Assembly (NCBI GenBank): GCA_963971285.1
Contig: OZ020263.1
Span: 1,674,001-1,738,000 of the forward strand
Direction: 5' to 3'
DNA: 64,000 nt
From: Astropecten irregularis
Taxonomy: Eukaryota > Echinodermata > Asteroidea > Paxillosida > Astropectinidae
Both the position numbers and the translations under genes were made by a program. A model generated the notes under the pieces. The model had not been told where the DNA came from, ran no database searches, and saw only the letters and a program-made list of their open reading frames with translations. Within the stretch, counting starts at the first letter, position 1. Each line of letters starts with the position of its first letter. Shown in pieces: positions 3,396 through 49,300 of the stretch.

Positions 3396-6300
3396 ATGTA
3401 TTCCAAACTAGCCACGATATTTCTGAGTTTATGCCTGCTTTTTGCAGGGATTTTAGCAGCCACACCTAGCTACATGATTGGGGTTGGAATTTCAGATGTG
3501 ACTGGACCTGCACTTGACGTGAATATGGTGAGAAATTATTGAAAATGATCATGATTACAAAATCGGTCAATTCAATGTTTGTTTATTATTACTTAGTATG
3601 TGGTGGGAGTGTTATTCACTGATTTACTGTTGTGTTGTATAATTTTAGTACAAGTAGTCAAATACTAGTCCTACTGAAAAACTATTAATTTTGCTGCATG
3701 ATTTTTTCAAACTTCACTGAACTCAGGAACATATAGGAAAGGAAGTTACAACTCCCATAAACTTCCATTTACATGTACTCTGTTGGGGGAGATTTCTGAG
3801 CTGATCCTGTGAAGTTAAACAGCTCACAATAACTTAATAATAACAAGTACAATCTTCCCTTCAATGGCCTTCATAGTACATGTACTATTTACCATTTTGA
3901 AATTTATAAATCAAAGAATAGGCCTATGTATGTTTCCGAGTTTTTTTAAAAGTTTATATTTGTCGGTTAATTCATCAACCTGGGTATTAAGTAATTTTTC
4001 AAGTTCATCCAAGGTTTGTAAAAAAAATTCATTAATTCGGAACCAATGATTGTCATTCTTTCTTTTAGTTTTTCACTGAACCCCCCTAACATCTGTAGTT
4101 ACTAGTTTGAGGGACTGGTTTATCCACATCATAGAAATGAAGGAATTCATAGTTGCGATGATTGTCTAGTAGACCAAGGGCAAGGCCAGGATTACCAACG
4201 ATCATCGCAACTTGGAATGAATTGCCTTGCTGTGGACTAGGAATCCCTTCCAGTCCCATTGTTTTTTTTCTTTGAAGAGATCATCAGACAAACAAAAATG
4301 GAATTATAATCATATATATTGAGCCTGTAGACAGCTTTTAATCAGATTAAATACGTGTGGAAGTAACCATTGACTTCCAAGAAATTTTATTTGTATCAAA
4401 TAACACATATGACACCGGTAGGCCTATACAGATGATGTCATTTTCAAGTGTAACAATTCATTATTCATATTTTCATACAGCGGCTATATAATAGAATTCA
4501 CTTTGGGTGTATGGCACCATACTGTGTCGTCAGCAACGACTAGTAGTAGACTTTGAAACCCTCAGTGAGATATTAACTTGTCCCTTCTCATAAATGGACT
4601 GCAAGTGCCTGATAAGGATCATAGAGGTCACAAGATAAATATCATCGGTACTTCATAATTACTAGGAGTGACCAGTGTATGCGTATTGACATACTTACTA
4701 TTCAGTTTGCTCAGACATTATTTTCAATAATGTGAGCATAATATGCATCATGTGTGTTATTTTATCTATTTTTGTCAAAGTGATGAGTCAGTATGTTGAG
4801 GTGTTCATCTGGTTTCTTTCAATGTACTCATCTACTTTTAAGCCCTTAGTTCCTTTTATCTTCCTCAGTGTGAATAATTAAATCTTTTGGAAGACTGGGT
4901 AGATTCAGGAAGGTGCCTCTAGAGCCAACATGCTGAGGGCCAGAATTTCAAGATTAATAAAACTGTGATCACAGGTCATCTTATCTGTCGCCAGTAGTGT
5001 ACTATTTATTATGAATAATATTACTTTAACACTAACTCTAAATGCTACAATACCCTAATGCTACCCTCATTCTCATACTAGTAAGGGTCGTGCACAAAAT
5101 TTACATACCTTATTTATAAATATGCAGGCAGGACAGTGGCTATAGCCACATGCTGGGATGGGTAGTGTGATATTGATTTGAACCCAACATTCATCCAGAG
5201 ACAGGTTTGGTTGGAATTAGCTTCCTAAATCCAGCGGCAATATCTGGGGAAAACGGCGCCCGGGGCAAGCGCTAAAATTGCGCCCCTAAATACCAACCTT
5301 TGAACCCAATGAATTTTAAAAAAAATCATATGATTTGAAATTGAAATCTTTGTTTGTTCAAACTTTATCGGATTAGATGTCCAATAACTTCAACAATACT
5401 GTCCTCCTTTTTTTAATTGTTTTCCTTTGCATTTTTTGTGTCCCCTAAAAAGTGGCGCCTGGGAATGTGCCCCCATTCACCCCCCCCCCCCCCAAATCTA
5501 CCAAAACCCCACACTTGCATACCAAACATTCCCTGGTGCATGTAACTGATTGCCTCTGTACTGTTGTTGATTTTTCTTCCTCAGATGGGTTATGCAGTCT
5601 TTGGTCAGAACACGGAGGGTATTCACTTGAGACTATACAGCCGGGCTTTCATCACATGCAACCTGAACGAGACAGAATGCAACGTGTTCGTCTGTGCTGA
5701 CATCGGAATGGCATCCTCGGCCATCAAATTCAAAGTATGAAGTCCATTGCAATCCAATTCAGGAAAGTTTACAGCAATTGTTGCAAGGTTTTGGTACAGT
5801 CGGATGCTACCATAAGCAACACCACTGTACTGAACATCATCCCTGGCTCCCCATTTTGGTAAACAAAACTTACTAAAAGTTTCCCAAATCGCTCAAATTA
5901 ATGTCTATAACAGACAATTTTTATGGATCCTGCATGTGTTCATTATAACAGCACTCCAGTCGATAAGTTTAGAGAACAATTAAATTTGTCACCCATTTTG
6001 CATTTTTTGGTCACAATTATGCAAATGAGCTGTCCTCAAAGACAGTCCGCACTAGTTTTAAATAGATTTATCTCGTCCAAACTGATAAATTTCATTCTGT
6101 GTTTTCCAATGTATCGTTGCCTAGGTGATCGAAGAGCTGCAGGATATCTACGGCGACCGTTACAACGAGAAGAACGTTGCCATCAGTGGCACGCATACGC
6201 ATTCCGGTCCTGGTGGCTATTTCCAATATAGTCTGTACACAGCGACTGCATTTGGCATCAAAAGAGCCAGCATTGACGCCATTGTAGAGGGGATCGTTGA

Positions 6301-9300
6301 GGTATGTATAATATTTGCCAGTTCTTAAAGGTACTATCATACCTTGGTAGCATACCAAAACAGATATCTCCACAGATTTATATATAACTTACAGGGTATA
6401 AAGATGGTGATGGTAGAAACATACTATTAAATTTGTCCTGCCTGAAGTGCTGTATTTATCCAGAAAAGAGTAAAAACAAAAATGACCAAAAACAGTTTTG
6501 ATCTTAGGAAGACCTAAACAAAAGAAAACAAAACTTGGAATCAAAATATGCAAATGTCCCAAACTCATAATTTTCCAATTTGTGCTGGATTTGTTTCATT
6601 TAAACAGAGCATCAAGAAGGCCCATACGAACCTACAAGAAGGAAACATCTCTTATAACAAGGGTGAACTCCTGGAGGTTAACATAAACAGGAGTCCGACA
6701 GCCTACGTACGCAATCCTCAGGCAGAAAGAGACAAGTAAGGAGCATCTTGTGAATTTTCTTGATAATAGGACGTCAGGCACTCTCAAGCATTAATTAGCG
6801 TCAGTGGTAGATTTGTTGGCTAGAGGCCTTTTCACATGATGTTATAAAAAAAACTCACAAGGCTTGCAAGTTTTTTTCATGAAATCTTACAAAAGTGTCA
6901 TCGTGTGAAAAGACACCAATGCTTGAGAGTGACCAATGCCCTGGTGAATCCTAGAGAAATTTCTCAAGCTTGAGAAATACTTGCAAGCCTTTGTGAGTTA
7001 TTTTTAGCATCGTGCGGGGGGGGGGGTCATGGGGTGCACATGTCCCCCCTCCCCTTTTCTTCTAGCCACAACAAAAAAAAAGAGGAAAAAAAATAATTTA
7101 TGTAGGTAGGGAGAAAAATAGAAGAAAAATAGGGGGGGGGATAAAATTAGCTAGCTTTGATCACCCCAAAATGCATCCGTCGCTATTGAATTGCCGCATT
7201 TTATTTCCATGCCCCCTCCCCCGTTTTGGAAATTCCTGGATCCGCTCCTGGAGACTAATGACTTTGTAAGTATACAATCATGTCATCATTGCAGATCCTA
7301 TCTGCCCTTTATCAGAAGCAATGAGAATTTACAAGGCAATAAACCGACCGGGACTGCGTAAAGTTGTCAAAATTGCTTCACAGCCTTACTTTGATTGTCT
7401 CTTTGTTATTAAAGGTATAGCTATGATGTGGACAAGGACATGGTTACGCTGAAGTTTGAAAATAGGGATGGCAAAGGATTAGGAGTTATATGGTAAGTAT
7501 TGGAGGTACGTTTGTGAAGGGTTTAGAGGAATGGACAAAGCCATCAGGGGTTGGAAATGATTCTCAGTCAAACCTTACGCAAATTGCTTTTTTCCCCTGC
7601 CTTGTCATCGTATTTGAGAGATTGTCTTAGAAAATGGTGTTGCTTATCCATAATTATTTTTCTGATAAAAGATAATAATCAATATAATAAATTGACAATA
7701 AAATTGATAATAAATGCTGAAAATTCTGTCGTTGTGTTTTTTTTTACAAGATTTTGATGATAATACATTTAATAGACTAAATTCTACCCTTTTTAGTTCT
7801 GTGGCTCTGAAACAAACCATTTGTTAAACTGGACATTATACTCTGGCCACCTTGAAAATGCTGATTAAAAAAACAATATTTTGCTTAAAAAACTTTTTTT
7901 TTCCTTACCAACAGGAATGTTTCCTTTGAAACTATAGAATCAATCATCTATCTTTTGTCTTCACGCCCTGTATTTTAAAGAAGATGTGCACAAAATAGAA
8001 CTGGAGACATAAACAAAAGCCAGTATTCTTAAAAAAACACCTATAATCAAGCAGTTTTCACGATGAAATATCTGAAAAAATTCACAGTTTTTTTCATTTC
8101 CTCCCTTTTCCATCTGCATTTCATTTTTTGTAAAAAAGTGTTTTCTATTTGATTTCTTTTCCAATGTTGCAGCTGGTTTCCCGTTCATCCAGTGAGTATG
8201 GAGAACAGCAATAAGCTCATCAGTAGTGACAACAAAGGCTACGCTTCCTATCTCTTTGAGATGGAGATGAACCCAGGAATGAGGATGGGCGAGGTGACCT
8301 CTCTTTAAATTCTTTGTCTGCCATGTTTATTCATTAGCAATTTTAGGAAAGAATCACTTTGATTAATCTTAGATAAGTATCAAATAAACCACAAGTGAAA
8401 ATGATTCATTGGATGGTGAACAATGAAAAATTTACTGGAGTGGGATTTGAACCAGAGGCCCCTTGGCTCAACAAATACAAAAGTAATAAAATTCTTTCTT
8501 AAATTTTAAAAAATTATTTTTCTTATTCAGGGGTCTTTTGTGGCTGCATTTCCAACCAGTAACCATGGTGATACGACCCCGCATATTAATGGCACAATCT
8601 GCATAAATACAGGAGAACCTTGTGATGCCGAGACAAGCACATGTGGAGGACAGGTACGTCTTATCCAAACTAACTTCAAAGCACATTGAGTCCGGCATTG
8701 TACGAGCTTAAATGGTAGCTCTGAGCTTTGAGGAGTGGTTAAATAGTATCACTGAAATCTATAAAGTTTACAAGATAAAAGTTCTAGTTTGTGCAAGTTT
8801 TGCATAACAAATGGCATAACATTTGAATAAGTTGTGGCTGTCACATGTTTTGTGTTGAAACTTTTTGTTTGCAGGCGGCCAATTGTATCGGAGGAGGTCC
8901 GGGAAAGGACATGTTTGAGAACACCAGAATGATTGCTGAAAGACTTTATGGAAAGGCAAAGGTGAGGTTTGCTTCATTGATTCAAGTTGCCGACAACGAG
9001 TCGTGCCGTTTTTTACCTGGATGGTTCCAGTCAAAATTTCAAATTCTTATTGTTACCTTCAAAATGGGAATTTTTGAAAGATTTTGTGGTTATTTCTTAT
9101 GTGTAGAATACCAACGAAAATTGAAGAATCCATGAAATTAGTGAATGTTCTGAAGGTTGCAGATTTTGTTTTATTCGGTTTACCTATTTCAGTTTAGTCT
9201 GAGTTATTTCAATTTAGAAGCCATGCTTTTTCCAAATTGTATCCTATAGTGAATAATTGAAGATATTGATTGATGTTATATCGATAATTTCCCTGCAGGA

Positions 9301-12300
9301 ATTGTATAATGCTACTGGTATACCACTCAGCGGGCCTGTATTAGCCGTACACCAGTATGTGAATATGTCAAATGTCACCATTGCGAAGGACAGTGACACA
9401 GTAAGTGCAATAACAATGGACATCCAGGACTCTTTCAATATTGGTCGGATCTATTATGTCATTTACCCTAACCCTCTGTACCTACCACAATAGACAAGAA
9501 TTGCTTACCACACATTATCACAGTCTCCACAAGGAAACTGGATCATAAACCACACATTACTGTGAAAATGTATTCAGGAAACCACACTTAAACATTTCGT
9601 TGATTTTTGTGTTATATAAAAACTATTAATTGTTTCTACTATTTTTGTTATTGTTACTACCAATTTAAATACCAATTCATTTTGTATCAATTGTTTTCAG
9701 TTTACAACTTGTACACCTGCTTTGGGCTACAGCTTTGCAGCTGGTACCACGGATGGTCCGGGAATTGTTACCTTCACTCAGGGTAAGCCAGTAGGATGAC
9801 CACTCAGGGTAAGCCAGTAGGATGACCTGCGTGGTCATCAATTACTTACTGACATGGTGTGATGGAAAGTTTGCCAGTTTTTGTTTGAGAAGCAGCTTTG
9901 ATCTTTCCAAAGTCATATATTCGGAATGATTTTTTACAGTCACTTTGCCAAGTTGTATTCAGTGGTTTATAGAACCCGTTTTACAAAATCACAACAACTT
10001 ATGAGTTTTCAGCATCAAGTTTTAAATAACTTAATCATCTCCATCAATAGGGCTCCGCGCTCGAGCTATTTATAGAATACGCCCTTTGTTATCGACAGCT
10101 ATAGTTACCCGGATGTTCGGACAAATATCACAACGTTTACGGTTAAGTTAATGGGGCCACGTGCGACTTGTTTGTCCGAACTTCTGAATGTGATGTCACG
10201 AGCGCAGAGCCCTATTGTGTAAGCTAACTCCACACAATTTGTTAGGTGAAAATAAGGATAGAATGATGCTGTTATTTACATGCTTTTCTTTTCACTGTCC
10301 TGAATTATCTCTTCGTTACGAAGTGATTTATTAATTTTTTCATGTGACATGTTAATTCCAACCATTGCAGTTGCCACCATTCAGCTTGCCAACCATTTCC
10401 TCATTCACATCACTGGCTAAATCGATGTCTCATTGGTCATCATTTCATGCATATTCATGATGTAGGCGGAGCTGTTTCATCATTACCAATGGTATGTGAA
10501 TACAAAATATCATTAACAATAAAAAAAAGAACGACATCGCATCATGCCCACATTGAAACTTTATTGAATGGGTGATCCAGCCAAGTTGGGGAAACTTTTC
10601 TGATTTTTGCATCTAGGCAGCAAATGGACCGTTCCGGCTTTGCTCTTAAGCTCCGCCCACCTTGGCAATGCCACGTGTTTTACATACTGCATGTGATACA
10701 GTCTGACAGATGTAAAGGACGACAATGACTTCAATTGGTCAATGCGCACGGTTTGATTGACAGGCCGGAAGGGTCCATTGTGTTTGTCTGTTAAAATACC
10801 GTAACGCCAATACTTGGCAGAATGACCCAACTCTATCACCTCTGGTTCTGATTTGATACAGGAATGACAGAAGGTACTCCTCTGTGGGATGGCCTCATCA
10901 AACCACTCTTCAACAATTTTGAAGAGACCCAAGCGTGTCAAAGACCCAAGCCAGTGCTTCTCCCCGTTGGAGATTACTTCAATACAACAGTAAGTCATTT
11001 TTATACAGCAATCCAAAGTTTTTGAAGGGCGCTTTCTCTTGATTAAAAAGGAAACTGCGGTATTATTTTGTACACCGCCAATCATCTATAGGATGTGTTG
11101 TTTGACCTTTGACCCTTTTTGTGTCATAAGAACATGGCTCCCGAGATCAAGGCGATTGTTGCTCTTCTGCTGAGCGATCCAATGGTACCGGACATCGTTG
11201 AGACACAGCTGCTCCGGATTGGCCAGTTTGTTATCATCTCGGGACCTGCAGAGTTCACGTAAGTCTCAATATATCTTAAATTGGGAGAATTTAGGGACAA
11301 CATCGGGATGTTTGGGGCCTTGCAGGATGAAGCTGGAGTGCTGGAGTGTCAGGCATTAGCTCTAGGCCATAGATTTTTTTTGCGTAGGCCACAAACTAAG
11401 CCATGTCCCTCATTTTCTTGTCTTCGACCCCCACCTCGTGGCCCCACAGTTTTGTAACCCACATGCTCCTTGATACAGGAAGTATGGCCTTAAAGTGTTT
11501 AATAAAAGTGTTTTCTTTCTCTTCTAAAAAGGACAATGGCAGGAAGGCTGATGTTGGAGGCAGTGAAACAAGTGAGGAAACATTTGATTAACTTTCTTTT
11601 TTTCTGCCGGCTTCGGCTCCATTTGGTTAACACATTTGAAGGTATCTATAGTATAGTGATTTTAACCACCAGTGCTTTTGGATTCAGTATGTTTGCACAC
11701 TAAAATTGGGAGCAAAGGATTATGTTCTATATAGCCCTATGTTCGGTATAGTGGTGTTCATTATAGCAGCATTCCACTATTCATGTGTCTGCAAAATTAT
11801 TATGTTGACTGAAGCATATCTTTGTCTCTAACACCAGATGCTTAATGAGAACGGCATGACAGGCGACGATGTTATGACAGTTATAACGAGTCTGACGAAT
11901 ACCTACACCAACTACGTGACTACATTTGAGGAGTATCAGGTATGTTTTTCCTTGCTTACTTTCGTGGAATTTTACTTCATTTTTATTTTTAAATTTGGTT
12001 GTGGTAATTCAGTGCGCAAGCTGCGCAAATTCCTTAACCCTAACCCACCGACATACAACAGTTTACCACACGGTAAGTGTGGTACGTCAGAGGGTTATGG
12101 TTAAGGGATATTGAATTTTCACATTAGTTCTCGCAGTGCAGCAGTGCTGTTTGTAGCCTGTAATTGCTAAGCAAAAAGTTTTGGTTGTAAGCAAATTTGT
12201 TTACCAAGCTGCTCTAAGGAAATCAGCTCAAGTAAATAGTTTTCATTTTGTTTTGACAGGTACAGAGATATGAGGGCGCTTCAACGTTGTACGGTCCACA

Positions 12301-14381
12301 TACACTAGATGCGTACCTGAAGCAATACACGATGCTTGCAGAGCATTTGGCTCAGGTAAGGTCGATCCGTGATTGAAACATGCATTTAACCCTAACCCAT
12401 TTGGACACTACTTGTAACCACACATGGTTTTAGGCAGATAGATACCATTGATGTTTGTTTATTATTTTGACTATTCATCCTTAAGATCTAGTGATGTTTC
12501 ACTTGGAAGAGCCCTAAATTTCACTTGTTAGCTGCAAAAAAAACAGGCAGTTGTGACATCCAACTCAATTCTCCAGTGTGGGTCTCTCCAGATTTCACTC
12601 TCCTTGCTTCTCCTGATACATACCATGTCATCCTTGCAGCATATCTATGTCCGTCTTCTGGTAGCACTCTTTGATGCAAATCAATTTTTAAATTTGTGTT
12701 TTCAAATGGTTTTCCTCCTCAGGGCAGAAGCGTTGAAGATCCGGGTCCAGATCCGCCGAAAATTGGTCTCCCTCCGTTGATAAATTTAGACACCGATGGT
12801 ACGCCTTCTGGCAAAGAATTCGGAGATCTCAACCAGAAACTCGACACCAAGTATCGCCAGGTATGGAAGGGATGATTTGCCCACGTGATCTCACTCTTGA
12901 AAACCCTCCTAAATCATCCGAAATCCATCCGTGCAGGATTGGTTTTAAAGGGAGTTGAGATGGCGTGGCCCATGCTTCATAACCTCGTACCAGGCTTGCT
13001 GGTGCAAAAGAATACACTAGTAGGATACTGCACAGTTTTGGATTTTGGTAGATTTAGGAAGGTTGTTATCCAAAATTTCAAGGGTTTAAAAGTTAATTTC
13101 ATACTTCGTAGAAATGCAGATTCATGGGCAAAAATATCAAGAAAGATACAGTATCAGTCTTCTGTGAAATTCCCAGTCCTTTACGGTGCCTATTTTTGAG
13201 AAAACAGTGAAAAATGCTCATTGTATTTTCATATCTATTTTTCATGTTTATAGCCTTAAATCAAATTGAATACCATATTGTGACATCACTCTTGGCTTGG
13301 TTGCATCTTAAGATCAATCTTGGTGCTTTGTGAAATTGACGGCAGCCCACTTTAGTGAATAATACATTCTACCCCCGATAAAGAAAACTAATTTTGGCCA
13401 TTTTTGATTTTTCCCAGGGGTCTATGGCCGAGGCTGTTTTCTGGTCGGCTGATCCCAAACGAGGGTCCACAAAGTCGGTAAGAAAATGCTTAAGTGGTAG
13501 GATGTGTGACAATGTAATCTTGCTTCTCATCTGAATTTATTGGAAGTGTTAACTGGCCTCAGAGTAGCTCTCAAGAGTCAATGAGGAGAACAAGTTTCCT
13601 ACCACCGAAGATGTTTTCCTTTTACTACAATTCCTTGCAAGATATTTGTGAACTGTCTCATTCTCATCAGCCTATGTGCTGTTTTCTTGATTAAGCGTCG
13701 CATCTAATTGTAAAGTTCTTTTCAAAAATTAAAGCGCTTCTTGTTGATTTGTTTATATTTCAGCTGGGTAATTCATATTTGAGTGTGGAGAAATATGACG
13801 GCAGTAATTGGATCGTGATTGCTGATGATGCCGACTGGAATACCAAGTAGGTCAACGCAGAACTTTACTAGGGCCAGAGATTTTCCATTTTAGAGTAAAG
13901 AAAAGAAAGTCCACTTTCCAAAAATTCTCCTTTGTAGTTTCAGATTGAGACTGACTGTTTTTGGGCAAGTCACTAAAATGAAAGAAATGGTAAAGTTTGT
14001 TTTTTCATATTCGTCCCTTGTACAGACGTTTTTGAAAAATTTTCCTTTGTCTTAATTTCCAGTCCCCCTGTGGAGACTGTGGTAGTGTGTGGTAAGCAGC
14101 TCTTGTCTTGTGTGGTAGATGCAGAGGGTTGGGGTTAATCTCTCTCATCAAGCTCCATTTTATTTTCCTGTCCTAGGATTTTCTGGCGCAAGGAAGGCAA
14201 GGAGAGTCGTGCGACCGCCCAGTGGATGATTCCAGAAGACGCTGATCTTGGCAGGTATCGCTTCGTTCACAACAGTCGCTACAGAAGGCAGATCTGGCAA
14301 TCGATCAGGGATTTCGACGGGATATCCGGAGAGTTTGAAGTCGTCAGCAGAGACTACACCAGGCCAAGGTCCCGAAAATAG
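3396..14381 (+). CDS. ASAH2: Neutral ceramidase paralog A, secreted, Thr at the nucleophile position
   Basis: Neutral ceramidase family: zinc amidase splitting ceramide to sphingosine and fatty acid at the cell surface or outside it. Exons: 3396-3527, 5585-5734, 6125-6301, 6608-6735, 7415-7492, 8173-8293, 8531-8653, 8875-8961, 9299-9400, 9701-9782, 10862-10989, 11131-11258, 11532-11571, 11838-11939, 12260-12355, 12723-12860, 13418-13477, 13764-13846, 14177-14381; 2160 nt, 719 residues. Start chosen because MYSKLATIFLSLCLLFAGIL is a typical signal peptide; an in-frame upstream ATG exists at 3300. The mucin-like stretch of vertebrate ASAH2 is absent. Zinc ligands look present: His118 (GTHTHSG), His227 (WFPVHP), Glu477 (PAEFTTM), Tyr of NTYTNY near 515-518; NRSP is also kept. 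The nucleophile motif GDVSPN reads GDTTPH, with Thr278 for Ser, and SGRR reads AGRL. The C-terminal Ig-like domain follows. A possible poly(A) signal AATAAA is at 14880. It may have altered or lost activity. Confidence 0.93.
8404..8475 (-). mobile_element. tRNA-derived SINE fragment, intron 6 of ceramidase A
   Basis: GGTGAACAATGAAAAATTTA and CTGGAGTGGGATTTGAACC correspond to the inverted tail and B box of the SINE family; the head is truncated. Confidence 0.6.
9776..9827 (+). repeat. Exact 26-bp tandem duplication spanning a splice donor of ceramidase A
   Basis: The 26 bases starting ACTCAGGGTAAGCC are present twice, back to back, at 9776-9801 and 9802-9827. The unit includes the last seven bases of exon 10 and its GTAAGC donor, so two identical donors lie 26 nt apart. 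The proximal donor keeps the frame with exon 11. The distal donor would add 26 nt and bring a TGA in frame within four codons of the normal junction. Confidence 0.9.
10046..10216. mobile_element. MITE with AATAGGGCTC terminal inverted repeats
   Basis: AATAGGGCTCCGCGCTCG at 10046 and the inverted CGAGCGCAGAGCCCTATT ending 10216; 171 bp, in intron 10 of ceramidase A. Confidence 0.85.
10623..10780. mobile_element. MITE with ATGGACCGTTCCGG ends, intron 10 of ceramidase A
   Basis: ATGGACCGTTCCGG and the inverted CCGGAAGGGTCCAT bound a 158 bp element. A second copy sits in intron 6 of ceramidase B (38336-38492), and the two share internal stretches such as CTTTGCTCTTAAG. Confidence 0.85.
12033..12107. 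mobile_element. MITE remnant with TTAACCCTAACCCA-type ends
   Basis: CTTAACCCTAACCCACC faces AGGGTTATGGTTAAGG, with inner TTTACCACACGG and TGTGGTACG; about 75 bp. Partial relatives are near 1265-1345, 9460-9540 and 14060-14140, and a fuller one at 17035-17163. Confidence 0.65.
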
Positions 14382-38000: not shown

Positions 38001-41000
38001 TCAACAATTGATGCCTGTCTAGCGCCCTCTATTGGTGGTGCACCTATTGTTATATTATAAAGGTTAAAAGGTTAAAGGTTAACTCAAGTTGTTTTTTATT
38101 ACCTTGCCACCACAGGTGCTGGAGTTGAAATCACACGGCTTGCCCGTGTCGATACATTTGGCTCCATTGGTGTTGGGTGAGACGTCGCCAAGATTGGCGG
38201 ATGCAAATGCGGCGACAAATTTACCCTGAAAGAGTTTCCATTACAAAGAACATATCTTTATTTATGTGCATTCAACAAATATGTAATTTTTGTAAAAATC
38301 TGAAATAACCATGAGAGTATCTTGTCAATGGACCGTTCCGACTTTGCTCTTAAGCCCCGCTCATACATGTATGTGTGTTTTACATACTGTATGTGACCGA
38401 GTTTGATTGAGGCTTTCATGGTCACCTGATTAAAAGTGTCCTCCGATTGGTCAATGCCCATATTTTGAATGATAGTCCGGAAGGGTCCATTGGATTTCAT
38501 GACCAAAAGAATCTTGACGACACCTCTCGTTATTATCCCTGGAGCCAATTTCAAAGCACTGGTTAATAATAGTAAGCAATGCTTCTCTGCTTAACATAGA
38601 AGAAAGATTTGCTTAAGCGTTCAAATATTTCATTGGTTTTCTGGCAAAAGTGTGGGAATTTGCAGTGTTGCTCTATCATAACTGTTTGGAAGGGAGTCAT
38701 GAACAAGAAAATCTTCTTTAAATTTGGAAAACAATTATTTCTGAAGCAAAGATAAACCTTTTTTGTTTGTGAAATAAATCTGTATAATCTGATTTCTTTT
38801 TTTCAGGCCTTGAATTTGGTTCTGAAAGGGGCAAGGCCACTTTTCCATTGCAAGGGGCACTTCCATTGGAAAATCATAATGTCTATGGAAACATTTGAAG
38901 GGGCACCAAGGCCATGGCCTCCGTTAAATTCAAGCCTAGGTTTTTGTGCACTTCTTCTGGGAACAGGAAATGTTTCTCCATATTTTCACACAATTCTTGG
39001 TGGATTTTTAAACAAATATTACAGGGGCATTCAGTAAACCCACCTTGCCTGGCCTGGCCTTCGGATTGAAATAGCCCTCCATAAGCTGGGAGGCGTAGCC
39101 CTTGTTGTCTCCACTGATTAGATGGTTGGTGTTGTTCATGCTGGTACCGTGAACCGCAAACCAGCTACGACAAACAAATACAGCAAATCTATCAGATAAC
39201 ATTCTTTAGCCATTCCCAAGCCTACATTCACCGTCTCATTCATATAGAGGGCGTGCACGTGACGTCACTTGACAGCTTATCGGCCATTTCGGACGGCACG
39301 CGTACGCACACACGTCGCGTATGCGCGCACACGTACGTACCAGACAGCATCATTATATGCACGCACTTCTGCGTCTGCGTACGCGTCCGGTTGATTTGCA
39401 AGCTACGCAAACACATGTGGGTTACATACACTGTACGTACGTGCATTATACATGTGTACAGCGTTGCTGTCCAAAATGGCGTCCTGATCACGTGACAGCA
39501 CACCCTCTATAGTGTGGGTTAGCTAGGGCCAATTTCACGGCTTACTTACTTGATCATGCCAAGGTCTGCTCCATCCTTGTCTACCAGTTTAAGGACAGTC
39601 ATGAGTTTATCTACGTTTGACGTGTATCTGCAAGTAAACAATACAACAAAGATAATGCCCTATCAGTGTGTACATCTTCTATCATTTGTTTTGACAACAA
39701 TAGAGGCCTTGAACAAGTGAAAATCTTTGTTTAGCACGAGTACAAACCTTTCACAAGATATAATGCGTTGAGTATTATAAAATGGCTGCTAATTTAAGGC
39801 ATATATTTATTGAATAATATTCTTTAAAATTTCAGTAGGCCTAATAATCAACATTTTGCTTTGAAACAAAGGGACTCTTCAATTTGATATTGAGACGTCT
39901 TCATCCGAAACAAATTTGTCCCGTTTTACCACAAAAAAGATGAAATTCCATTTTTCCTTTGAAAAAAAAAAATGGAACGGAATGTGTTCAATGTATCATT
40001 TTGTAGTCTCACAATCTCCGAAAGACATGTTAAATTTTCAAATTTGTCAATTGAAAATCCCTTTAAGAGTGCACCCCGAAATTCAGCAGAATTCTTGACG
40101 ATGCACCTTGAGCTTGCATTATGGGACTTACTTGGCCCGTTCCTGCTTAGGATTGTTGGCATAGGCACTTGGGCTTCGATTGATGTTGGACTTGAAGAGA
40201 TTACCCGCATTGTAATACACGTTGCCATCTACCATGCTGTCGTGGGCATTCTCAATACTCTGAGGAAAGAAAATTGTTTAATTGATTGATGGATTGATTG
40301 ATTTATCGATCTTTGGTTGATCCATCAATTGATCAATTTTTTTATTTATTAATTGATTTTATGATTGATCGATTACTTGACTGATTGATTGGTCCATTGA
40401 ATGAATGATCCATTGATGAACGATTGATCGATCGATTGATTGATGACAGATTGATCCATCCATTGATCAATTATTTGATTAATTGATTGATTTTTTGATT
40501 GATCGATTGCTTACATTGGTCAATTGATTGATTAATCAACTGGTTGATTAATTGATCGATCGATGACCGATCAATCCATTGATTGATCAATCGATTGGTT
40601 AATTGATCGATTGATTGATTGATTCACCGTTTGCTCTCAAACTGTTTGCGGTTCAAAATTACACAAGTCTTCTATTGTCAACCAACCTGAACTATGCCGT
40701 CGACCTGGGCATGGAATGCTTCCGGGATGAACCCCAGGGAAGTGACTTGGAAGAGGACGTGCTCCAGGAATCCGGCCACTCCGGAATGGGAATGCGTCCC
40801 ACTGATGGCAACGTTCTGGATGGAGTAAAGGTCCTTGTACTTGGCCTGGAGCTTCTTGATAACCTACAGAGAGAGAGAAGGAATTGATAAAGGATGACAC
40901 ACAGTCCTGCCTGGGATTGTGGCCACAACAGCTGCCACATACGGTGCTACAGAGGAGGTTGCAGTGGGCTGGAAGGAACAACTGATGATGCTCTTGCCTG

Positions 41001-42454
41001 GTTGTCTTCTCTGGACTTGGCACATTAGTCTGTATGCTTTTCATACAAAAGAAGGAAAAGATGCTTTCCCAATATTTAGTTTTCTTTCACCGATGACGAT
41101 CAATTTTTTGGCAATTGATTAATTTGAAGGATTATACTACTTGATGCCTTCCGTTTCAGTTGAATTGGGCATTGTGGGTCTTGGGCAGGAGTTTTGCACA
41201 TGTTTATCACACTGCATCTAATCTAAGGTTAGGCCCCTTTCTGTTCAGTACGAGTTGAAATTCAGTACATGATAAATTTTGTAAAATGCCTTCTGCAAAA
41301 GGGGTACATTGCATCCTTGGATGGGCAGGGCAAGTTGAGATGGTGCTAAGGGCGTTTCCTCTTGAATCTCAAAATGCCAGTAGAAACATTTCAAGAATGA
41401 GGAAGATTCATGCACGACCAAAGAAGGGGTCAGTGGAGACAAGTGCCTCTCTGGCCCCTGTAGTGACCGTAGCAAGGCGTTTAAACTCTCAATGCAAAAC
41501 GTAGCTAGACTGACCTCTAAAGTGACCAGTTGGTCTTGCATGCCGGCGTCAATGCTGACAAAGACCACCCGGTCGTCTGGCTTAGCGACGTCGGCGATAA
41601 TAAAGGCTCGGCTGAACTGTCGGAGGTGAATACCCCCAGTCACCTGTGAAGGATTGGCATATCCCATCTACGAAAAAATAATGAGAAACAAAAATAAGCC
41701 TTGTGAATATTATATTAATATATTTCATTACAATAGTCAATATTTGCACTATAATAATTCACTTTTCAAAACTTACTAGTTATGCAACCCCAGTTCTGCA
41801 TAGCTGACATTTCAATTTCAATTGGTTAAACATTACTTGCATCCAGTAAGTTAGTTAGCTTAAGATTAAAGGATAAATTGCTTGTACTTTCCGTCAGTGG
41901 AGCTCTCTCGTTGGCATTGTTCATTATTTTGGGAAAACAAAACAGCGGTAACCAGTGAAACTTGCCGATTGTTAGGTTCATGAACCTCCTGTGTTTTTAT
42001 CATAATTATGCACAACATGCGCAACCCAACGTATTTACGGTCGTACTTGTGTGTGATAAAAACACAGAAGGGTCCATCCCGAACTTTACAAAAACAGCTC
42101 AAACTGTCAAAGTGAAACTCCGTCTCAAAATCGAATGTAAAATCAAATTAAATTTGGGCACGAGACATGACAATACAGACACGATGCTGTATTCTGTATT
42201 TAAACAGTTAATATGAAAACATGTTCACAAGTCAATCAGTATACCATGTTGGCTTCTGCAGCAGGCCCAGTAATGTCAGCTATCCCCACACCAATTTTGT
42301 AGTTGGCTTGACTGTCCATGGCCTTTCGTGCGCTCTGTAAAACTTCATTGGACATTTTTGACCACTTGATACTCGGACCACCAGAAACCGCCTGGACGAA
42401 GACGGATAAAGTCTGAATAAGGAGCAGCGTCCACATCATGTTTCGGCCCACCAT
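32067..42454 (-). CDS. ASAH2: Neutral ceramidase paralog B, secreted, catalytic motifs intact
   Basis: Neutral ceramidase (zinc-dependent N-acylsphingosine amidohydrolase). Minus-strand exons: 42454-42245, 41667-41515, 40863-40687, 40259-40132, 39627-39550, 39164-39044, 38225-38103, 37726-37640, 37301-37197, 36736-36655, 36195-36083, 35470-35376, 35133-35094, 34845-34747, 34626-34531, 34090-33947, 33770-33717, 33059-32971, 32247-32067; 2175 nt, 724 residues, TAG stop at 32069-32067. The N-terminus has a hydrophobic signal segment (WTLLLIQTLSVFV); Met1 or Met6/7 could be the start. NYKIGVGIADITGPAA opens the catalytic domain. Zinc ligands: His145 (GTHSHSG), His254 (NWFAVH), Glu489 (VPGEFTTMSGRR), Tyr in NTYSDY (526-529). 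The nucleophile Ser305 lies in an intact GDVSPN, and NRSP is present. All introns obey GT-AG; donors after exons 2, 10 and 13 are weak (GTCAGT, GTTCGT, GTCAGT). The C-terminal Ig-like domain ends in SREFQVTA. This looks like the active enzyme of the pair. Confidence 0.95.
32330..32415 (-). mobile_element. tRNA-derived SINE, intron 18 of ceramidase B
   Basis: Minus strand: a tRNA-like head (GGCTGGATAGCTCAGATGG, B box near GTTTCGAATCCCGCTCC) and the tail matching AATTTGTCTTTGTTCACC. It resembles an intact tRNA-like head but lacks the folding quality of a real tRNA gene and has the SINE tail. Confidence 0.8.
33075..33175 (-). mobile_element. tRNA-derived SINE copy, intron 17 of ceramidase B
   Basis: Same family as at 32330: GAGCGGGATTCGAAACAGG on the plus strand is the inverted B box, preceded by the AAGTGAACAAAGAAAAACTG tail. 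Confidence 0.7.
34198..34420. mobile_element. MITE with GGGGCCAATTTCATAGAGCT ends, intron of ceramidase B
   Basis: GGGGCCAATTTCATAGAGCT with GCTTAAGCA and the inverted AGCTCTATGAAATTGGGCCC bound 223 bp. Confidence 0.85.
36245..36505 (-). mobile_element. Two adjacent tRNA-like SINE copies, intron 10 of ceramidase B
   Basis: GCAGGATTCGAACCTGTGAC with AACTGACTGAGTCC, then AGAAATCGAACCAGG with CTACCGACTGAGTCC, are two similar inverted tRNA-like heads about 170 bp apart. They appear to be a tandem pair. Confidence 0.6.
36850..37140. repeat. Simple repeat rich in ACAATGAC and ATGACA
   Basis: Imperfect AATGAC/ACAATA tandem repeat of about 290 bp inside intron 9 of ceramidase B. Long open frames here on both strands are low-complexity artefacts. 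Confidence 0.9.
37336..37466. mobile_element. MITE with GCCGTGTCTCAAATCTCTGG ends
   Basis: GCCGTGTCTCAAATCTCTGG and the inverted CCAGAGATTTGGGACACAGC bound about 131 bp, in intron 8 of ceramidase B. A second copy is at 58625-58757. Confidence 0.85.
38336..38492. mobile_element. MITE with CAATGGACCGTTCCG ends, intron 6 of ceramidase B
   Basis: CAATGGACCGTTCCGAC and the inverted CCGGAAGGGTCCATTG bound 157 bp; same family as 10623-10780 in ceramidase A. Confidence 0.85.
39243..39511. mobile_element. CpG-rich MITE with TATAGAGGGCGTG ends
   Basis: TATAGAGGGCGTGCACGTGA and the inverted TCACGTGACAGCACACCC-TCTATA bound 269 bp full of ACGTACG, GCGTACGC and CACACGT stretches, unlike the AT-rich intron around it. 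Confidence 0.75.
40290..40625. repeat. Simple repeat of TTGATTGA/TCGATCGA units
   Basis: About 335 bp of imperfect ATTG/ATCG tetranucleotide repeat immediately before exon 3 of ceramidase B on the plus strand, that is, in intron 3. Confidence 0.92.
41966..42110. mobile_element. MITE remnant with GATTGTTAGGTTC ends, intron 1 of ceramidase B
   Basis: CGATTGTTAGGTTCATGAACC and GTGTTTTTATCA face TGATAAAAACACAGAAGGGTC and CGAACTTTAC; related to 43586-43732. Confidence 0.6.
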
Positions 42455-42618
42455 CTTGTTGTAGAAGTTACTAAAGTGTGATTTTCATGGAAAAGTTGTA
42501 GGGCCTAACAGAATGCGAAACGTCCCGGTTGTTTTTGGTATGTGTTCTGCTAAATTCTTCACTCATGTAACACACATATCAGGTGATTCATTCACAGAGC
42601 CTCACGTCACGTGATGAG

Positions 42619-42885
42619 CAGGGGCCAATTTCATAGAGCTGCTTAGCACAAAAAATTGCTTAGCACAAAAATAGCTTGCCCAATAAAATAAACCACTATC
42701 GAAAATTCCATTTGATATTCATGGTCAGCGAACAACAGCCAAAGAACAATCACAATAATAATATATAATTCTTGTATAGGGATACACAACACACGGAAAT
42801 TTAATTGTTAATCCTGTTTTTATTCAGACAGAAATCTCATGCTTAGCGAATTTTAGTGCTAAGCAGCTCTATGAAATTGGCCCAG
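42619..42885. mobile_element. MITE with GGGGCCAATTTCATAGAGCT ends, upstream of ceramidase B
   Basis: Same family as 34198-34420; the ends GGGGCCAATTTCATAGAGCT and AGCTCTATGAAATTGGCCC are 267 bp apart. It lies about 165 bp upstream of the ceramidase B start codon. Confidence 0.85.
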
Positions 42886-43585
42886 AGCCGTGGATTATAC
42901 AGGGCGCCCTCAGTCACCTCTTCAGCTTCAACAACAGAATGCTTGAGAAATTAACGATAACGAGCGACTGAAAGCCAGTCTAGTGTTTAATTTTAGAAAT
43001 TTGATTCGTCTGGTACCTAGACTTCTATCGTATTCGATGACCGCGACAAGGAGTGCCTGGTACCGAATGCATGGAGGTCGTGCATTATTTTGATGACAGA
43101 CAAACCTGAACGACACGTACGCAAGAAAGCTCGGTCAACTTGAACTTGGAACTAGTCTTGAAAGTTATTTACAATACAGTTTTATCGGCCGGCTGGACAA
43201 CTGCAGGGCTGACTGACTGAGGTAGGCTTTGAGTAGCTTTGCTGTTGGATTTAAACGTCTAAAGATCTCGCGATCTCGATATTGATTTTTGGTAAGTTAG
43301 TTCAGGTTGTCTTGCTCTTTTTTTTTTAATTCTTATGAAGTTATGATACGGTAATCAGATACGTCTTTGATTTTGTAGTCGTCATGGTCGTGAGCCTAGC
43401 CCTAAGTTCTAACGTAGGCCCGATGAACGTGAACTTTATTTTCGTCGAGCCAAAACTAAGCTATGGTGTTCTTCTTGTGATGATTGATCAATTTATGATC
43501 ATTGAGGAGTTGAAGTTTGACGTCATTGACATTGTTGAGGCCCAACTTGTATATTTCATTTTGATCAGCATGAGTGACCAATTTG

Positions 43586-43732
43586 GCGATTGTTAAGTTC
43601 GGGACCCTCTTCTTGTGTTTTTATCACACGCTTGAACGGCCAGCAATCCATTCCGTTGCCCATGCTGTGGCCTGTGCCATTTGATAAACACACAGGGGGG
43701 TCCCAAACTTTACAATCGCCTGACCATTGGCA
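43586..43732. mobile_element. MITE with GGCGATTGTTAAGTTCGGGA ends
   Basis: GGCGATTGTTAAGTTCGGGA and TGTGTTTTTATCA at the left, TGATAAACACACAGG and CCCAAACTTTACAATCGCC at the right; 147 bp, between ceramidase B and the third first-exon. Confidence 0.85.
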
Positions 43733-43931
43733 TGTTAAGTTACTTTTTTAAAGTACTGGCACAGTGGCAGTGCCATTTGCAAAATGTGCACTCTGCGCAA
43801 CGCAGCGGCAGAGATGGAGTGCAGTAATATCGATAATATGCAAATTAGGCTTGCCCTTCATTGACGTGGATGAGCACTGTATACTCAGTGCTTGTGAGAG
43901 CACGTGAGAAAAAAATCACAATATGCTTGCT

Positions 43932-43995
43932 CAGGTGGGATTCGAACCCACGACCTCCTGCTTACTAGTGCAGATGCCTTACCTGCTAGTTGTAT
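43932..43995 (-). mobile_element. tRNA-like SINE head
   Basis: GGTGGGATTCGAACCCACGA on the plus strand is an inverted B box; CTTACCTGCTAG nearby is a degenerate A box. Its 5' part does not fold as a good tRNA. Confidence 0.55.
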
Positions 43996-44208
43996 CGGTG
44001 TCGAGTTTACACATAATTATTAGTTTGTGTATATAAGAGATTGAACGTAATTCAAGGATTGTAGTTGGAAATTTGGAAAAGATTGTTTCTTTATTGGGCT
44101 AATGCTCTTGAAAAATTCACGGGACTCAAATGATTGACACGTGATGCCTCCATTGGAAGGCCTCCTTGTGTATTGAAAATGGATAAACTTACCATGGGAG
44201 TTTCAGCT

Positions 44209-46149
44209 GGGTCATTCCGTGTCAATTCAACGCGCTTTGGAACCCGACCGACTCGGATTTCAATGAAATTTGGTATGCTTATTGGCCTCCATGAGAAACC
44301 CTCAGAACCGAAATTTTATGTAATTTGGTCCATTACTTTTTGAGATACGGGTTAACGAACTTTTGACTAATTAGCACAATCTGTCGCATTCAAACAGCCA
44401 TATCTCCAGAAGTAAAGAACCTACAGAAATAAATTTTACATCATTCTAAAGCTCTTATAATGGCCTTCATTTTGTAAAATAAAACCAAAATTGTTTCATG
44501 TACGACAAAAAAGTTACGTTAAAATTTGACCTTTGACCTCGATTAAAAAAAATGCGTATTTTTCAAAATGCATAATTTTTATTTCAATTTTAGCTTGACA
44601 TGTAAGTAACATCTCCAGAAAAATTTGGAGTGGGCGCTCATATACTTTTGGAGTTATGATAATTTAAACATCGGATTTCGAGGATAAAACCTGTAAATAT
44701 GCATTAACATGTGCATTGTACATATACTTATGTACAGGTAATCCATGTAAATCCATGTATAGTAATGCATGTGCAAAAATATGAAGTATTTTGGCCTTTC
44801 TAGCCATTTTCAAGTAAGCATAACTACAAAACTGTACAAAAGCCCATCCTTAATCTTTTACATGTTGCTGCATTCTAAACACAAGGCCCTATATCTTCCG
44901 GGAAGGGGGGGGGGGGTGGTTGGGTGGGCTAGTGTACCTGTCAGCCAAGCATGTTAACTAAGGGGCCTGTTTGTTTAACGCACAGGATCCCAGATTTGGG
45001 GATCAAGGTCCTATGCAGGGTACGCTAAAATGATATCCGGATCTGCTGGATTCGTGATCTTGTGCATTAAACAAACAGGGCCTAACCTAGTCATCTCCAT
45101 TCCATCAGAGTTTTTGTTGCAAATTTCATTTCCTTTGCAGGCATCTTTTACGTGTTTAGTCTCTGTAATACTAAAGTTTCCACAATTGTTACTATTCTGA
45201 GAGTGCATCAAGTAATGTGTAATCGTGTATTTAAGCAACTAGCAATTGTTCCTTCCAGCTATTAAACAATGGTAAACCGTAAGCTGTGAATTCCTTCAGT
45301 TTACACAGATACTCTCAGGATATAAAATAGTAATAATTGTGGAAACTGTTACAGAAATCAGATCTGTTTACTTGATGTCTGCAAAAGAAATGAAATCTGC
45401 AACAAAAAAATTATGATGGAATGGAGATGACTAGGTTAGTTAACATGCTTGGCTGACAGTTGCAGTACCCCCCCCCCCTGAATATATAGGGCCCAGAGCA
45501 ACATCTAAAAGATTAAGGATGGGCTTTTGTACAGTTTTGCAGTTATGCTAACTTGAAAAGGGCTAGATAGGCCAAAATACTTCATATTTGTGCACATGCA
45601 TTACTATACATGGATTACATGCACATAAGTATATATGTACAATGCACATGTTAATGCATATTTACAGGTTTTATCCTCAAAATCCGATGTTAAAATGATC
45701 ATAACTCCAAAAGTATATGAGCGCCCACTCCAAATTTTTCTGGAGATGTAACTTACATGTCAAGCTAAAATTGAAATAAAAATTATGCATTTTGAAAAAT
45801 ACGCATTTTTTTTAATCGAGGTCAAAGGTCAAATTTTAACGTAACTTTTTTGTCGTACATGAAACAATTTTGGTTTTATTTTACAAAATGAAGGCCATTA
45901 TAAGAGCTTTAGAATGATGTAAAATTTATTTCTGTAGGTTCTTTACTTCTGGAGATATGGCTGTTTGAATGCGACAGATTGTGCTAATTAGTCAAAAGTT
46001 TGTTAACCCGTATCTCAAAAAGTAATGAACCAAATTACATAAAATTTCGGTTCTGAGGGTTTCTCATGGAGGCCAATAAGCATACCAAATTTCATTGAAA
46101 TCCGTGTCGGTCGGGTTCCAAAGCGCGTTGAATTGACACGGAATGACCC
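44209..46149. mobile_element. Long-inverted-repeat (foldback) DNA element, GGGTCATTCC ends, 4-bp AGCT target duplication
   Basis: The left arm beginning GGGTCATTCCGTGTC at 44209 is matched in reverse complement by the right end at 46149. The arms, each roughly 0.9 kb, run nearly to the centre around 45230-45270, so the whole 1941 bp element is a large imperfect palindrome. AGCT flanks both ends (44205-44208 and 46150-46153), consistent with a 4-bp target duplication. No transposase frame is visible; it is non-autonomous. The left arm is longer because of a nested insertion. A G-rich tract marks both arms (about 44903 and 45468). Superfamily not assigned. Confidence 0.85.
44962..45082. mobile_element. 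Nested MITE, PIF/Harbinger-like, TAA target duplication
   Basis: A 121 bp insertion present in the left arm of the foldback element but missing from the right arm. Its ends are GGGGCCTGTTTGTTTAA and the inverted TTAAACAAACAGGGCC, with TAA on each side (44959-44961, 45083-45085). The right arm shows the empty site. A 3-bp TAA duplication and G/C-rich ends fit PIF/Harbinger-type MITEs; the family assignment is inference. Confidence 0.75.
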
Positions 46150-46368
46150 AGCTGCTGGTCCCGTGATATCAGCGATCCCAACGCCTATCTTGTAATTGAC
46201 TGCCATTTCTTCTGAGCCCAGTGGTGCCGGATTCACTGCAGCTTGGCCATCGGCCAACCAATTCCATAAACTCCACGGACTCCATGAATTAACCCCTGAA
46301 ATGCCGGTGATGAAAACGAGAGCCAACACCCATGCCACATGGAATATTATTTTTCTCAGTGCCATCAT

Positions 46369-49300
46369 TGATCTGTGCCCAGTGAAAGTGAAGTGATATA
46401 ATGAAGACAAATTCTGAAGTCCACTATGAGTATTACAATACAAGAACTACCATTACAATGTACCGATTATAAATACTTAATTTACATACAAAACAAAATA
46501 GTTTATTTGTTGGTGTGTGTATAGTAATTTGATGGTACCATGCTTGTATGAATTTATACAAGTACAACATGTTTGACTGTATTGTGCACATGTACCTGCA
46601 CATGTGCGCATTACATAACTTCTTCTGGGTTTTTTGCATGAATATATTTTATGATGGTTGTTGACTCAAATTATGCGTGTATATTTTGTAGTGCTTTACG
46701 TGATACATAAAACTTTTATTGCTGGTCACACACAGCTCACAGCCATCTTAATTTTGTCTTGACTTAGGGTATAGGCCCTAAGGCTGCAGTTTGTATCCGG
46801 TTAACCGACCGTTCAAAGGGGTACCCGGGTACATTTTCCCAGTTAGGTTAATCGAAAAGTATCTTTTTAATTGCCTCTTCTTTTTGAAACATAGACACTT
46901 TCTAGAGTTCACAAAGAAAAAAAGTCAATGATCTTTTGAAAATTGGACCAGCAGGCTTATGCAAAGCAAAGGCCAGACATTTTGCTATGTCTACTACTGC
47001 CAAATGTTGTGACAAAAGAATGTTGTCAACCAAGTTCCTGAAAGACCCAAACTTACTTTTTCTTTGTTTTTCTTTGTTTTCTTTGTTATAAGGGTAATCG
47101 TAACCGTAACCGAAAAACAGACGGGTAACCGGTTACAAAATTATTCGTAAACTTACAGCCATAATAGGCCCCCTACATATGCATCGAGATGGATTGGATA
47201 CACATATTAGACAGAATTATCAACATTTCATTCACTTTTGTGTGTTTTTGTTTTTAAATTTCTTGTTTCAAAATGATTTTGTTGATTTTAATTGTAATGT
47301 TTTACATGCTTTTTAAACATCTCAAACAAATCTTAAAGTTTGATTCATTTGTTTGTTTGTTGGACTGTCTGTTTGTTTGTTGTTTTAAATTAGTTTTGTA
47401 GTAGAAGTGTAGCTTGAAAAAAGATGAAAAGATCATCTTCCCCCTCATGTTTGATATGCCGCTGGTCCAAGCTATCATCTTGCCTCATTCTAGTGGAATG
47501 ACCCAAACACACATGTTCATACAGCAAGTGTAAGACATCAAATAAAATTGAATTACTGCCTGGAATTTGGTTCTTTGGGAGGCAAGGCCATGTTGTTCTC
47601 TTTTTCATACTGGCACAAACATTCGGAAAATCAAAATAGCTAGAGACATTTTTTTTAAAGGGGCACCAGTTGCCTGTCGCTGTCCTTCCTGACATTTTGT
47701 GCTTGTATTTATTTGTCCTGCCAGTGGGCAGTGCCCCTTTAAAATGAAGCTAGATGTAAATATATTGGCAAAGAGAGAGCTCATTAACCAATCCAGCAAG
47801 ATGAGGCATAAGTCACCTGGTTGATTCTGACTATGGAGTTTTAAAGGCTTACTCCATGTTCTGACTCACAGGCCATTAGATATTTTTTTATTCAAATCAA
47901 TAGGAATTTTCAACAAGATTAGAAGGTTTGCACGGTGAGAAGGCAATAAATGAACGGAAGTTTGCAGTACTTAACAGTCTGTAACACCATACAACCACAC
48001 AAATTAAAGAACGAGTAGGCCTATTGTTTCACATGGAAACCTCCTTTCCTTTAACAGGAATTTTGGATATTTTAACCCAGAAAATGTCCTTGTATCATCA
48101 GGATATTACCCAAAAATCAACATGATCTTTCCAATGCATGAATAAGATGGGAAAAGCCGTATGTATTTTGTATGATCCATTCCAGTCACATTTTTTCAGC
48201 CAGAAACCTGGTCAAACCACAGAGGTATGGTCACAGAGAAGGCCATCGGTGAAAAAAAAAAACCTGGCACAAATTTACTAGCCTTGAGCATGTGGATATA
48301 TTTTCATTTGGGAGGATTTTGTGGCTGGACTCATTGTGGTGGAGTTTTTTAATTGCCAGTTGTAGGTGTGTACCTGCAGGGGTCACCAATGGTCTGGTAC
48401 CTGGGACATTGTACAGAATTTACCCTTGGGCCCAATTTCAGTTAGCACAAAATTTGCTTTAAAAACATGAAAAGTCTTCCTTGATCAAACATGATTACCA
48501 ACCAAATTGTCATGTGATGTTTACTGCTTGTGACTTGTATTTGGCCATTTTTTGCTGAGCATAACTTTCACAAGGAGCTTTGGCTGGCATACTGATTCTA
48601 TTTACTAAGGTTTTTGGTGCTTTTAAAGGCAAATTTTGGTGCTTTTAAAAGCAAATTTTGGTGCTTTAAGCAGCTCTATCTCCGCTGGGCTTACTTGTGG
48701 TCCAGTGTTGGTTTTTCCTTGAATGCAAACCCACAAACAAACTTGTCCGACCGACCAACTACTGAGACTACCATACTCCCCCTTTGTTGGTTTCCATGTG
48801 TACCATACGAAATGGCCACATGTCTGAAATTTAAGAGGATAAAAAAAAAAAAAATGAATGCGTGCACTTAACTATATTTTTGCTGGTGGTTTAAAACAAA
48901 TTAATGAATACAGATTTTTATGTGTAACAGAATTCATATTTCTCTGCAGTTGGTCACTTGTATTGTATGCTTCTTTCTGTTGAAAGTACATGAACCCTTA
49001 AGTACTCTGCACAAGTAATTCTGTTTCAAGCCATTGCATGACTTAAACTTGAATTATTGAATTATATTTCCAATTTGATTTGTCTGTTTATACAGATGTA
49101 TGTTCGTACGCACAGTAGTAGATGTATCCTTATAAATGTTAGTGTACATGATATTCTTTCTTGTAAAGTTGAAGATGTTGCAGGACAGTGAAGTTTATGT
49201 AATGTGTATATGAGATGTCCACTTATTCTCCACTTATAAATAGCTAAGTAAATGATTGCATATTTTTATGTACAGAACAGCAGATGCAAAGCGTGCCTGG

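Follow-up and report, generated by a model that had tools for sequence, protein, structure and literature searches.

A transposon-split ceramidase first exon upstream of a neutral ceramidase gene in Astropecten irregularis: a candidate alternative first exon

Results

Two neutral ceramidase genes and a third first exon

The window analyzed here comprises 64,000 nt of contig OZ020263.1 (1,674,001-1,738,000), and the assembly searched along with it totals 475.7 Mb in 168 contigs. Two genes for neutral ceramidase, a fat-cleaving enzyme, lie inside the window as a tail-to-tail pair on opposite strands (genes A and B; Table 1). Gene B matches both PF04734 and PF17048 and contains the NLGDVSPN motif of human ceramidase. 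Its first exon, 210 nt in length, ends in NYKIGVGIADITGPAAEANM ahead of a phase-0 donor (GTATAC), and its second exon starts in phase 0 with ATGGGATAT, preceded by the acceptor TTTTTTCGTAG. Gene A has GDTTPH (8528-8656, plus strand) where gene B (38094-38228, minus strand) and human ceramidase have GDVSPN; the threonine sits at what we take to be the position of the nucleophile serine (human Ser354), and histidine in place of asparagine is a second change. Judged from this motif, gene A may encode an inactive or altered enzyme. Isoforms of gene B carry more weight because the usual motif is found in gene B and GDTTPH in gene A.

Table 1. Coordinates of the ceramidase genes, the split exon and the inserted element within the window
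Feature	Position	Strand	Basis
Gene A, second neutral ceramidase	3396..14342 (end approximate)	+	exon 1 to last PF17048 match
Gene B, neutral ceramidase	32076 (approximate)..42454	-	exon 1 to last PF17048 match
Gene B exon 1: signal peptide, then NYKIGVGIADITGPAAEANM	42245..42454	-	PF04734 E=0.0014, under the family cut-off
Gene B exon 2: MGYANPSQ...LE	41515..41667	-	PF04734 E=7.4e-17
Exon C, 5' part: signal peptide, linker, NYKIGVGIADITGPAA; 73 codons	46150..46368	-	gene B exon 1 match, E=1.4e-7
Exon C, 3' part: AGCT copy (44205-44208), then GAAACTCCCATG (ETPM; 44204-44193)	44193..44208	-
Exon C splice donor GTAAGT, phase 0	44187..44192	-	5.9 bits
Palindromic DNA transposon, GGGTC...GACCC, 1,941 bp	44209..46149	.	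family ends, duplications, inverted arms
Target-site duplication AGCT, first copy	44205..44208	.	comparison of family copies
Target-site duplication AGCT, second copy	46150..46153	.	comparison of family copies
Stop codon within the element, ending the frame from 46368 after 117 aa	46015..46017	-

Upstream of gene B lies a further ceramidase-type first exon, here designated exon C, with a length of 231 nt on the minus strand in two pieces (46368-46150 and 44204-44193). It opens with an ATG at 46368 and continues for 73 codons, from an N-terminus (MMALRKIIFHVAWVLALVFITGISG) forming a hydrophobic segment, called as a signal peptide with hydropathy as the sole criterion, through a linker to the residues NYKIGVGIADITGPAA at 46150. 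The last codons, GAA ACT CCC ATG, occupy 44204-44193 and are followed directly by the donor GTAAGT. Scored with tables of vertebrate sites, under which the donor of gene B exon 1 itself is also low, this donor ranks at the 99.7th percentile among all GT dinucleotides on both strands of the window and is the highest of the first exons (5.9 bits for exon C, 4.4 for gene A, -2.5 for gene B); the acceptor of gene B exon 2 scores 2.8 bits. A weak acceptor, CACAG/ATC (46369-46388, minus strand; 1.8 bits; the slash marks the junction), is located four bases upstream of the exon C ATG, and a non-coding exon might precede exon C.

The likeness of exon C to the other first exons is not due to chance, because gene B exon 1 used as the query of a tblastn search of the window matches it at E=1.4e-7. 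After the signal peptide, the first exons of genes A and B and exon C have in common the pattern Y-x-I-G-V-G-I-[AS]-D-[IV]-T-G-P-A, and each finishes in ATG ahead of a phase-0 donor. With the element removed, the last 20 codons of exon C and gene B exon 1 align codon for codon with 18 identical residues (13 between genes A and B, 12 between gene A and exon C). The last four codons differ by two amino acids, from EANM in gene B to ETPM in exon C, and the asparagine of EANM is present in gene A, gene B and human ceramidase and absent in exon C and bacterial ceramidase. The signal peptide and linker of gene B and exon C have a weak likeness, with 38% identity over 69 aligned positions, core included. 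Neither PF04734 nor any other Pfam profile matched the 73-residue piece of exon C at E <= 0.1; the first exons of genes A and B likewise fall under the PF04734 cut-off, since each of these exons holds only about 20 of the 509 profile positions. The initial annotation had proposed that removal of the insert joins signal peptide, NYKIGVGIADITGPAA, ETPM and GTAAGT into one exon, that this is a third ceramidase first exon and that its donor phase equals that of gene B exon 1, and these proposals hold at the coordinates given here, with both donors and the start of gene B exon 2 in phase 0.

The inserted element and its effect on the frame

The break in exon C, attributed to a transposon in the initial annotation, does coincide with an element of 1,941 bp that has the ends of a repeat family and lands, within a perfect AGCT duplication, immediately before the last four codons of the exon. 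The element is near-palindromic, with outer arms of 537 nt that are 98% complementary, and its longest open frame has 75 codons. Allowing a single mismatch at most, its ends occur 220 times genome-wide, 113 in the forward and 107 in the reverse orientation; a reversed-pattern control gave no occurrences in either. A comparison of 30 copies (the exon C copy plus 29 more, taken from a listing of 32 full-length matches minus the two weakest) revealed 4-bp duplications at the same ends in all 30, of which 26 are perfect and four have one mismatch. With its terminal inverted repeats, fixed-length duplication and many dispersed copies sharing the same ends, as in non-autonomous cut-and-paste elements, the insert is by these features an ordinary non-autonomous DNA transposon. 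The 4-bp duplication also agrees with Sola-type elements, a trait that is not Sola-specific. Across 1,911 compared sites, 14 substitutions are private to the copy in exon C (0.7%, against a median of 0.55% for the 30 copies), and its terminal branch in a FastTree phylogeny measures 0.0215. By its own divergence of 0.7-2.2% the element is young, though not the youngest. If transcribed, it is predicted to form a very stable hairpin (-1361 kcal/mol, ViennaRNA), and any effect of this structure on the transcript is speculation.

Read from its ATG, exon C runs into a stop codon within the element. A scan for splicing around the element, covering sites in the exon or up to 700 bases from each element end, returned 28 in-frame, stop-free pairs of donor and acceptor. 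The best pair reaches -3.2 bits, and its use would lengthen the protein by 22 residues; its donor is at the 93rd percentile and its acceptor, which is the end of the element itself (CCCAG/CTGAA), at the 56th. An introner would have frame-restoring splice sites at or near its ends, and -3.2 bits is the best that this element offers. With the frame terminating inside the element and only low-scoring options for bypassing it in frame by splicing, the exon C isoform has likely been lost through the insertion. Of the two outcomes suggested initially, an exon knocked out or changed, the stop after 117 aa agrees with the first, while the poor scores for in-frame splicing speak against the second.

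Searches for other ceramidase sequences and empty sites

Profile searches of the assembly, with every first-look candidate scored, placed 23 of 23 PF04734 matches and five of five PF17048 matches (E <= 1) in genes A or B. No third ceramidase body was detected by these searches in the 475.7 Mb, giving a genome-wide tally of two bodies (A and B) against three first exons (A, B and C). A whole-genome search with exon C joined to gene B exon 2 found five places at E <= 10, all inside the window. Four of them are exons 1 and 2 of genes A and B, those of gene A being weak (E of 0.44 and 0.044), and the fifth is exon C itself with a stretch of 23 aa (E=1.9e-5). Within the window, tblastn with 32 queries (16 exon peptides of gene B, 15 of gene A and the 5' part of exon C) produced 68 matches at E <= 0.1, and the three located outside gene A, gene B and exon C (E of 0.056-0.078) are at about the chance level for 32 queries. 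This search identified no ceramidase body exon between exon C and gene B exon 1, as the initial annotation had stated. Remnants of body exons or of the C-terminal domain were likewise not detected in the assembly by profile or in the window outside genes A and B by tblastn. A separate third gene elsewhere, to which exon C might belong, was dismissed as far as the assembly reaches, since neither profile nor translated searches found a third body in it. Further, the assembly yielded no empty site or haplotig: among the best 40 candidates scored per query, the sequence flanking the exon and that upstream of gene B each match only themselves at full length, and the other listed matches are repeats. 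This result carries no information on other individuals.

Several other features of the neighborhood and the assembly were recorded. Three dispersed repeats of about 160-265 bp, each with many genomic copies listed, occur near gene B exon 1 and exon C (42619-42883, 43829-43989 and 46779-47000). The TTCGAACCCACGACC stretch in the repeat at 43829-43989 presumably resembles a tRNA B box, and no tRNA gene was called in window positions 41000-48000. A partial prolyl 4-hydroxylase alpha-type gene is present at 58865-59224 (plus strand; PF23558, E=1.9e-16), so placed that exon C lies between it and gene B. Mitochondrial COX1 on contig C168 reads for 454 codons without a stop in code 9 (echinoderm and flatworm mitochondrial), and its protein appears to be of echinoderm type. 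A second mitochondrial-type COX1 stretch on a large contig (G000:C25:9951047-9952018) has seven TGA codons and is either a chromosomal mitochondrial insert or a misassembly. An additional COX1 match without stops (G000:C131:32162-33484), within an open frame of 552 aa, possibly derives from a bacterial contaminant or sample associate.

Selection on exon C and its timing

Between gene B and exon C, the 16 core codons before the insertion site comprise three identical codons, 13 with synonymous differences and none with an amino-acid difference. When 13 changes were distributed at random over these codons, no fewer than three residues were altered in any of 20,000 trials, and simulations in which exon C was neutral since the duplication and gene B constrained never lacked an amino-acid change (0 of 3000; mean 9.7, minimum 4). 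If both were constrained, 13 differing codons are reached after 1.9 neutral substitutions per site in each lineage (median; 5-95% range 0.8-5.3). This codon comparison indicates that the core of exon C has been under long purifying selection.

The end of that constraint can be bounded by neutral decay, simulated with a transition bias and an indel rate chosen by the analyst. The probability of retaining both an intact frame and an unchanged core is 0.50 at 0.01 neutral substitutions per site, 0.25 at 0.02, 0.028 at 0.05 and 0.0005 at 0.1. From this decay, the simulation dates the end of constraint to at most about 0.05 substitutions per site ago, at the insertion or not long before it. It should be noted that the intact frame is only weakly informative on use after the insertion, as at 1% divergence roughly one neutral exon in two would be expected to appear intact. 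Taken on its sequence, exon C is an exon that was long maintained and recently broken.

Discussion

A probable role of exon C as alternative first exon

Because purifying selection has acted on exon C, the exon must have been joined to others in a transcript. It most likely functioned as a first exon of gene B, since the closest ceramidase exon downstream that offers a matching acceptor and phase is exon 2 of that gene. Its donor and phase fit gene B exon 2, gene B exon 1 is the only ceramidase exon between the two, and no body belonging to exon C was detected in the assembly, which is the arrangement expected of an alternative first exon. We consider this the most economical reading and hold it with moderate confidence. 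Exon C would have originated as an ancient duplicate of the first exon of gene B. Its transcript would begin upstream of 46368 and splice from 44193 to gene B exon 2 at 41667, and the product would be the gene B enzyme, though with the signal peptide and linker of exon C. The insertion would abolish the exon C isoform, as the frame ends inside the element, and with gene B exon 1 untouched by the insertion the enzyme itself would persist. In this scheme we infer the promoter, the splice from exon C to gene B exon 2 and the loss of the isoform by the insertion. The initial annotation had offered the same interpretation; the phase fit, the lack of a detected third body and the long selection favor it, and the recent deletion of a third gene body would leave the same sequence behind.

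That deletion is the strongest competitor, though we think it rather unlikely. Exon C would be all that is left of a third, tandem ceramidase gene whose exons 2 onward were recently lost in one deletion, spanning from intron 1 of that gene to the region upstream of gene B, and the transposon would have hit a dying or dead remnant. A ceramidase pair is already present at the locus, exon C has its own signal peptide as a complete gene would, and the dispersed repeats between exon C and gene B (42619-42883 and 43829-43989) could have mediated such a deletion. Conversely, no body exon or C-terminal remnant was detected in the assembly, or in the window outside genes A and B, and loss of the body would have to be confined to the last ~0.05 substitutions per site. 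The scenario therefore requires two recent losses.

The remaining explanations are far less probable. Were the element spliced out as an intron in the manner of an introner, exon C would still be functional. Some known introner families have inverted ends and 4-bp duplications (PMC9860276), the hairpin would bring the exon halves close, and the best in-frame pair uses the element end CCCAG/CTGAA as its acceptor; but that pair, the best of 28, reaches only -3.2 bits and adds 22 residues, and although vertebrate-based tables keep the test from being absolute, we regard this outcome as very unlikely. Slightly less credible still is a history in which exon C never had a function and is a stray duplicate with a leftover or chance likeness. 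It has no Pfam signal alone and its last four codons are altered, but 13 synonymous against zero amino-acid changes in 16 codons, a pattern matched in none of 3000 neutral simulations, is difficult to reconcile with this history. Least probable is an assembly artefact in which a repeat was joined into the exon. Long palindromes are difficult to assemble, but the insert ends precisely as its family does and lies within a perfect 4-bp duplication, as do 25 of the 29 other copies, the copy in exon C has 14 private substitutions, and its exon flank has no second full-length match among the best 40 candidates scored in the assembly.

If exon C did serve gene B in this way, an intact exon C is expected in related species. 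The locus is a clear example of how selection can preserve an exon through near-saturating synonymous divergence until a transposon disrupts it, with the rest of the gene in place and with a measurable age for the transposon that broke it. The low divergence of the element suggests that the empty allele may still be in existence, and if the insertion segregates, carriers and non-carriers would show the role of an alternative ceramidase N-terminus. More tentatively, and with less than even confidence, gene B may have had a UGT1A-like set of two ancient first exons that gave one enzyme two targeting or secretion forms, one of them now switched off by a perhaps segregating insertion, so that a ceramidase isoform would be naturally present in some individuals and missing in others.

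Comparison with known systems

The UGT1A locus, some of whose first exons are pseudogenes, resembles gene B in that variable first exons are joined to common exons, with the difference that in gene B we infer the alternative use. Additionally, gene B would have only two first exons and its family is neutral ceramidase. At UGT1A, unique first exons with a promoter each are joined to one common exon set (PMC2724710). Human ASAH2 (4WGK) has PF04734, PF17048 and NLGDVSPN in common with gene B; according to PMC6952831, it has a signal anchor at its N-terminus, there are several putative start codons, and mucin-box O-glycosylation is tied to the location of the enzyme. A literature search found no report of an alternative first exon of any neutral ceramidase.

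Introners and the element in exon C have in common a 4-bp duplication, inverted ends and a position in a coding exon (PMC9860276, where echinoderms, sea urchins and starfish are not mentioned), but the in-frame splice sites close to either end of the element score poorly. Sola2 transposons are described as having 4-bp duplications that are AT-rich (PMC3627910). Non-autonomous palindromic foldback or MITE-like DNA transposons of the kind with 4-bp duplications have long inverted arms, fixed ends and many similar copies, and the same is true of the element in exon C.
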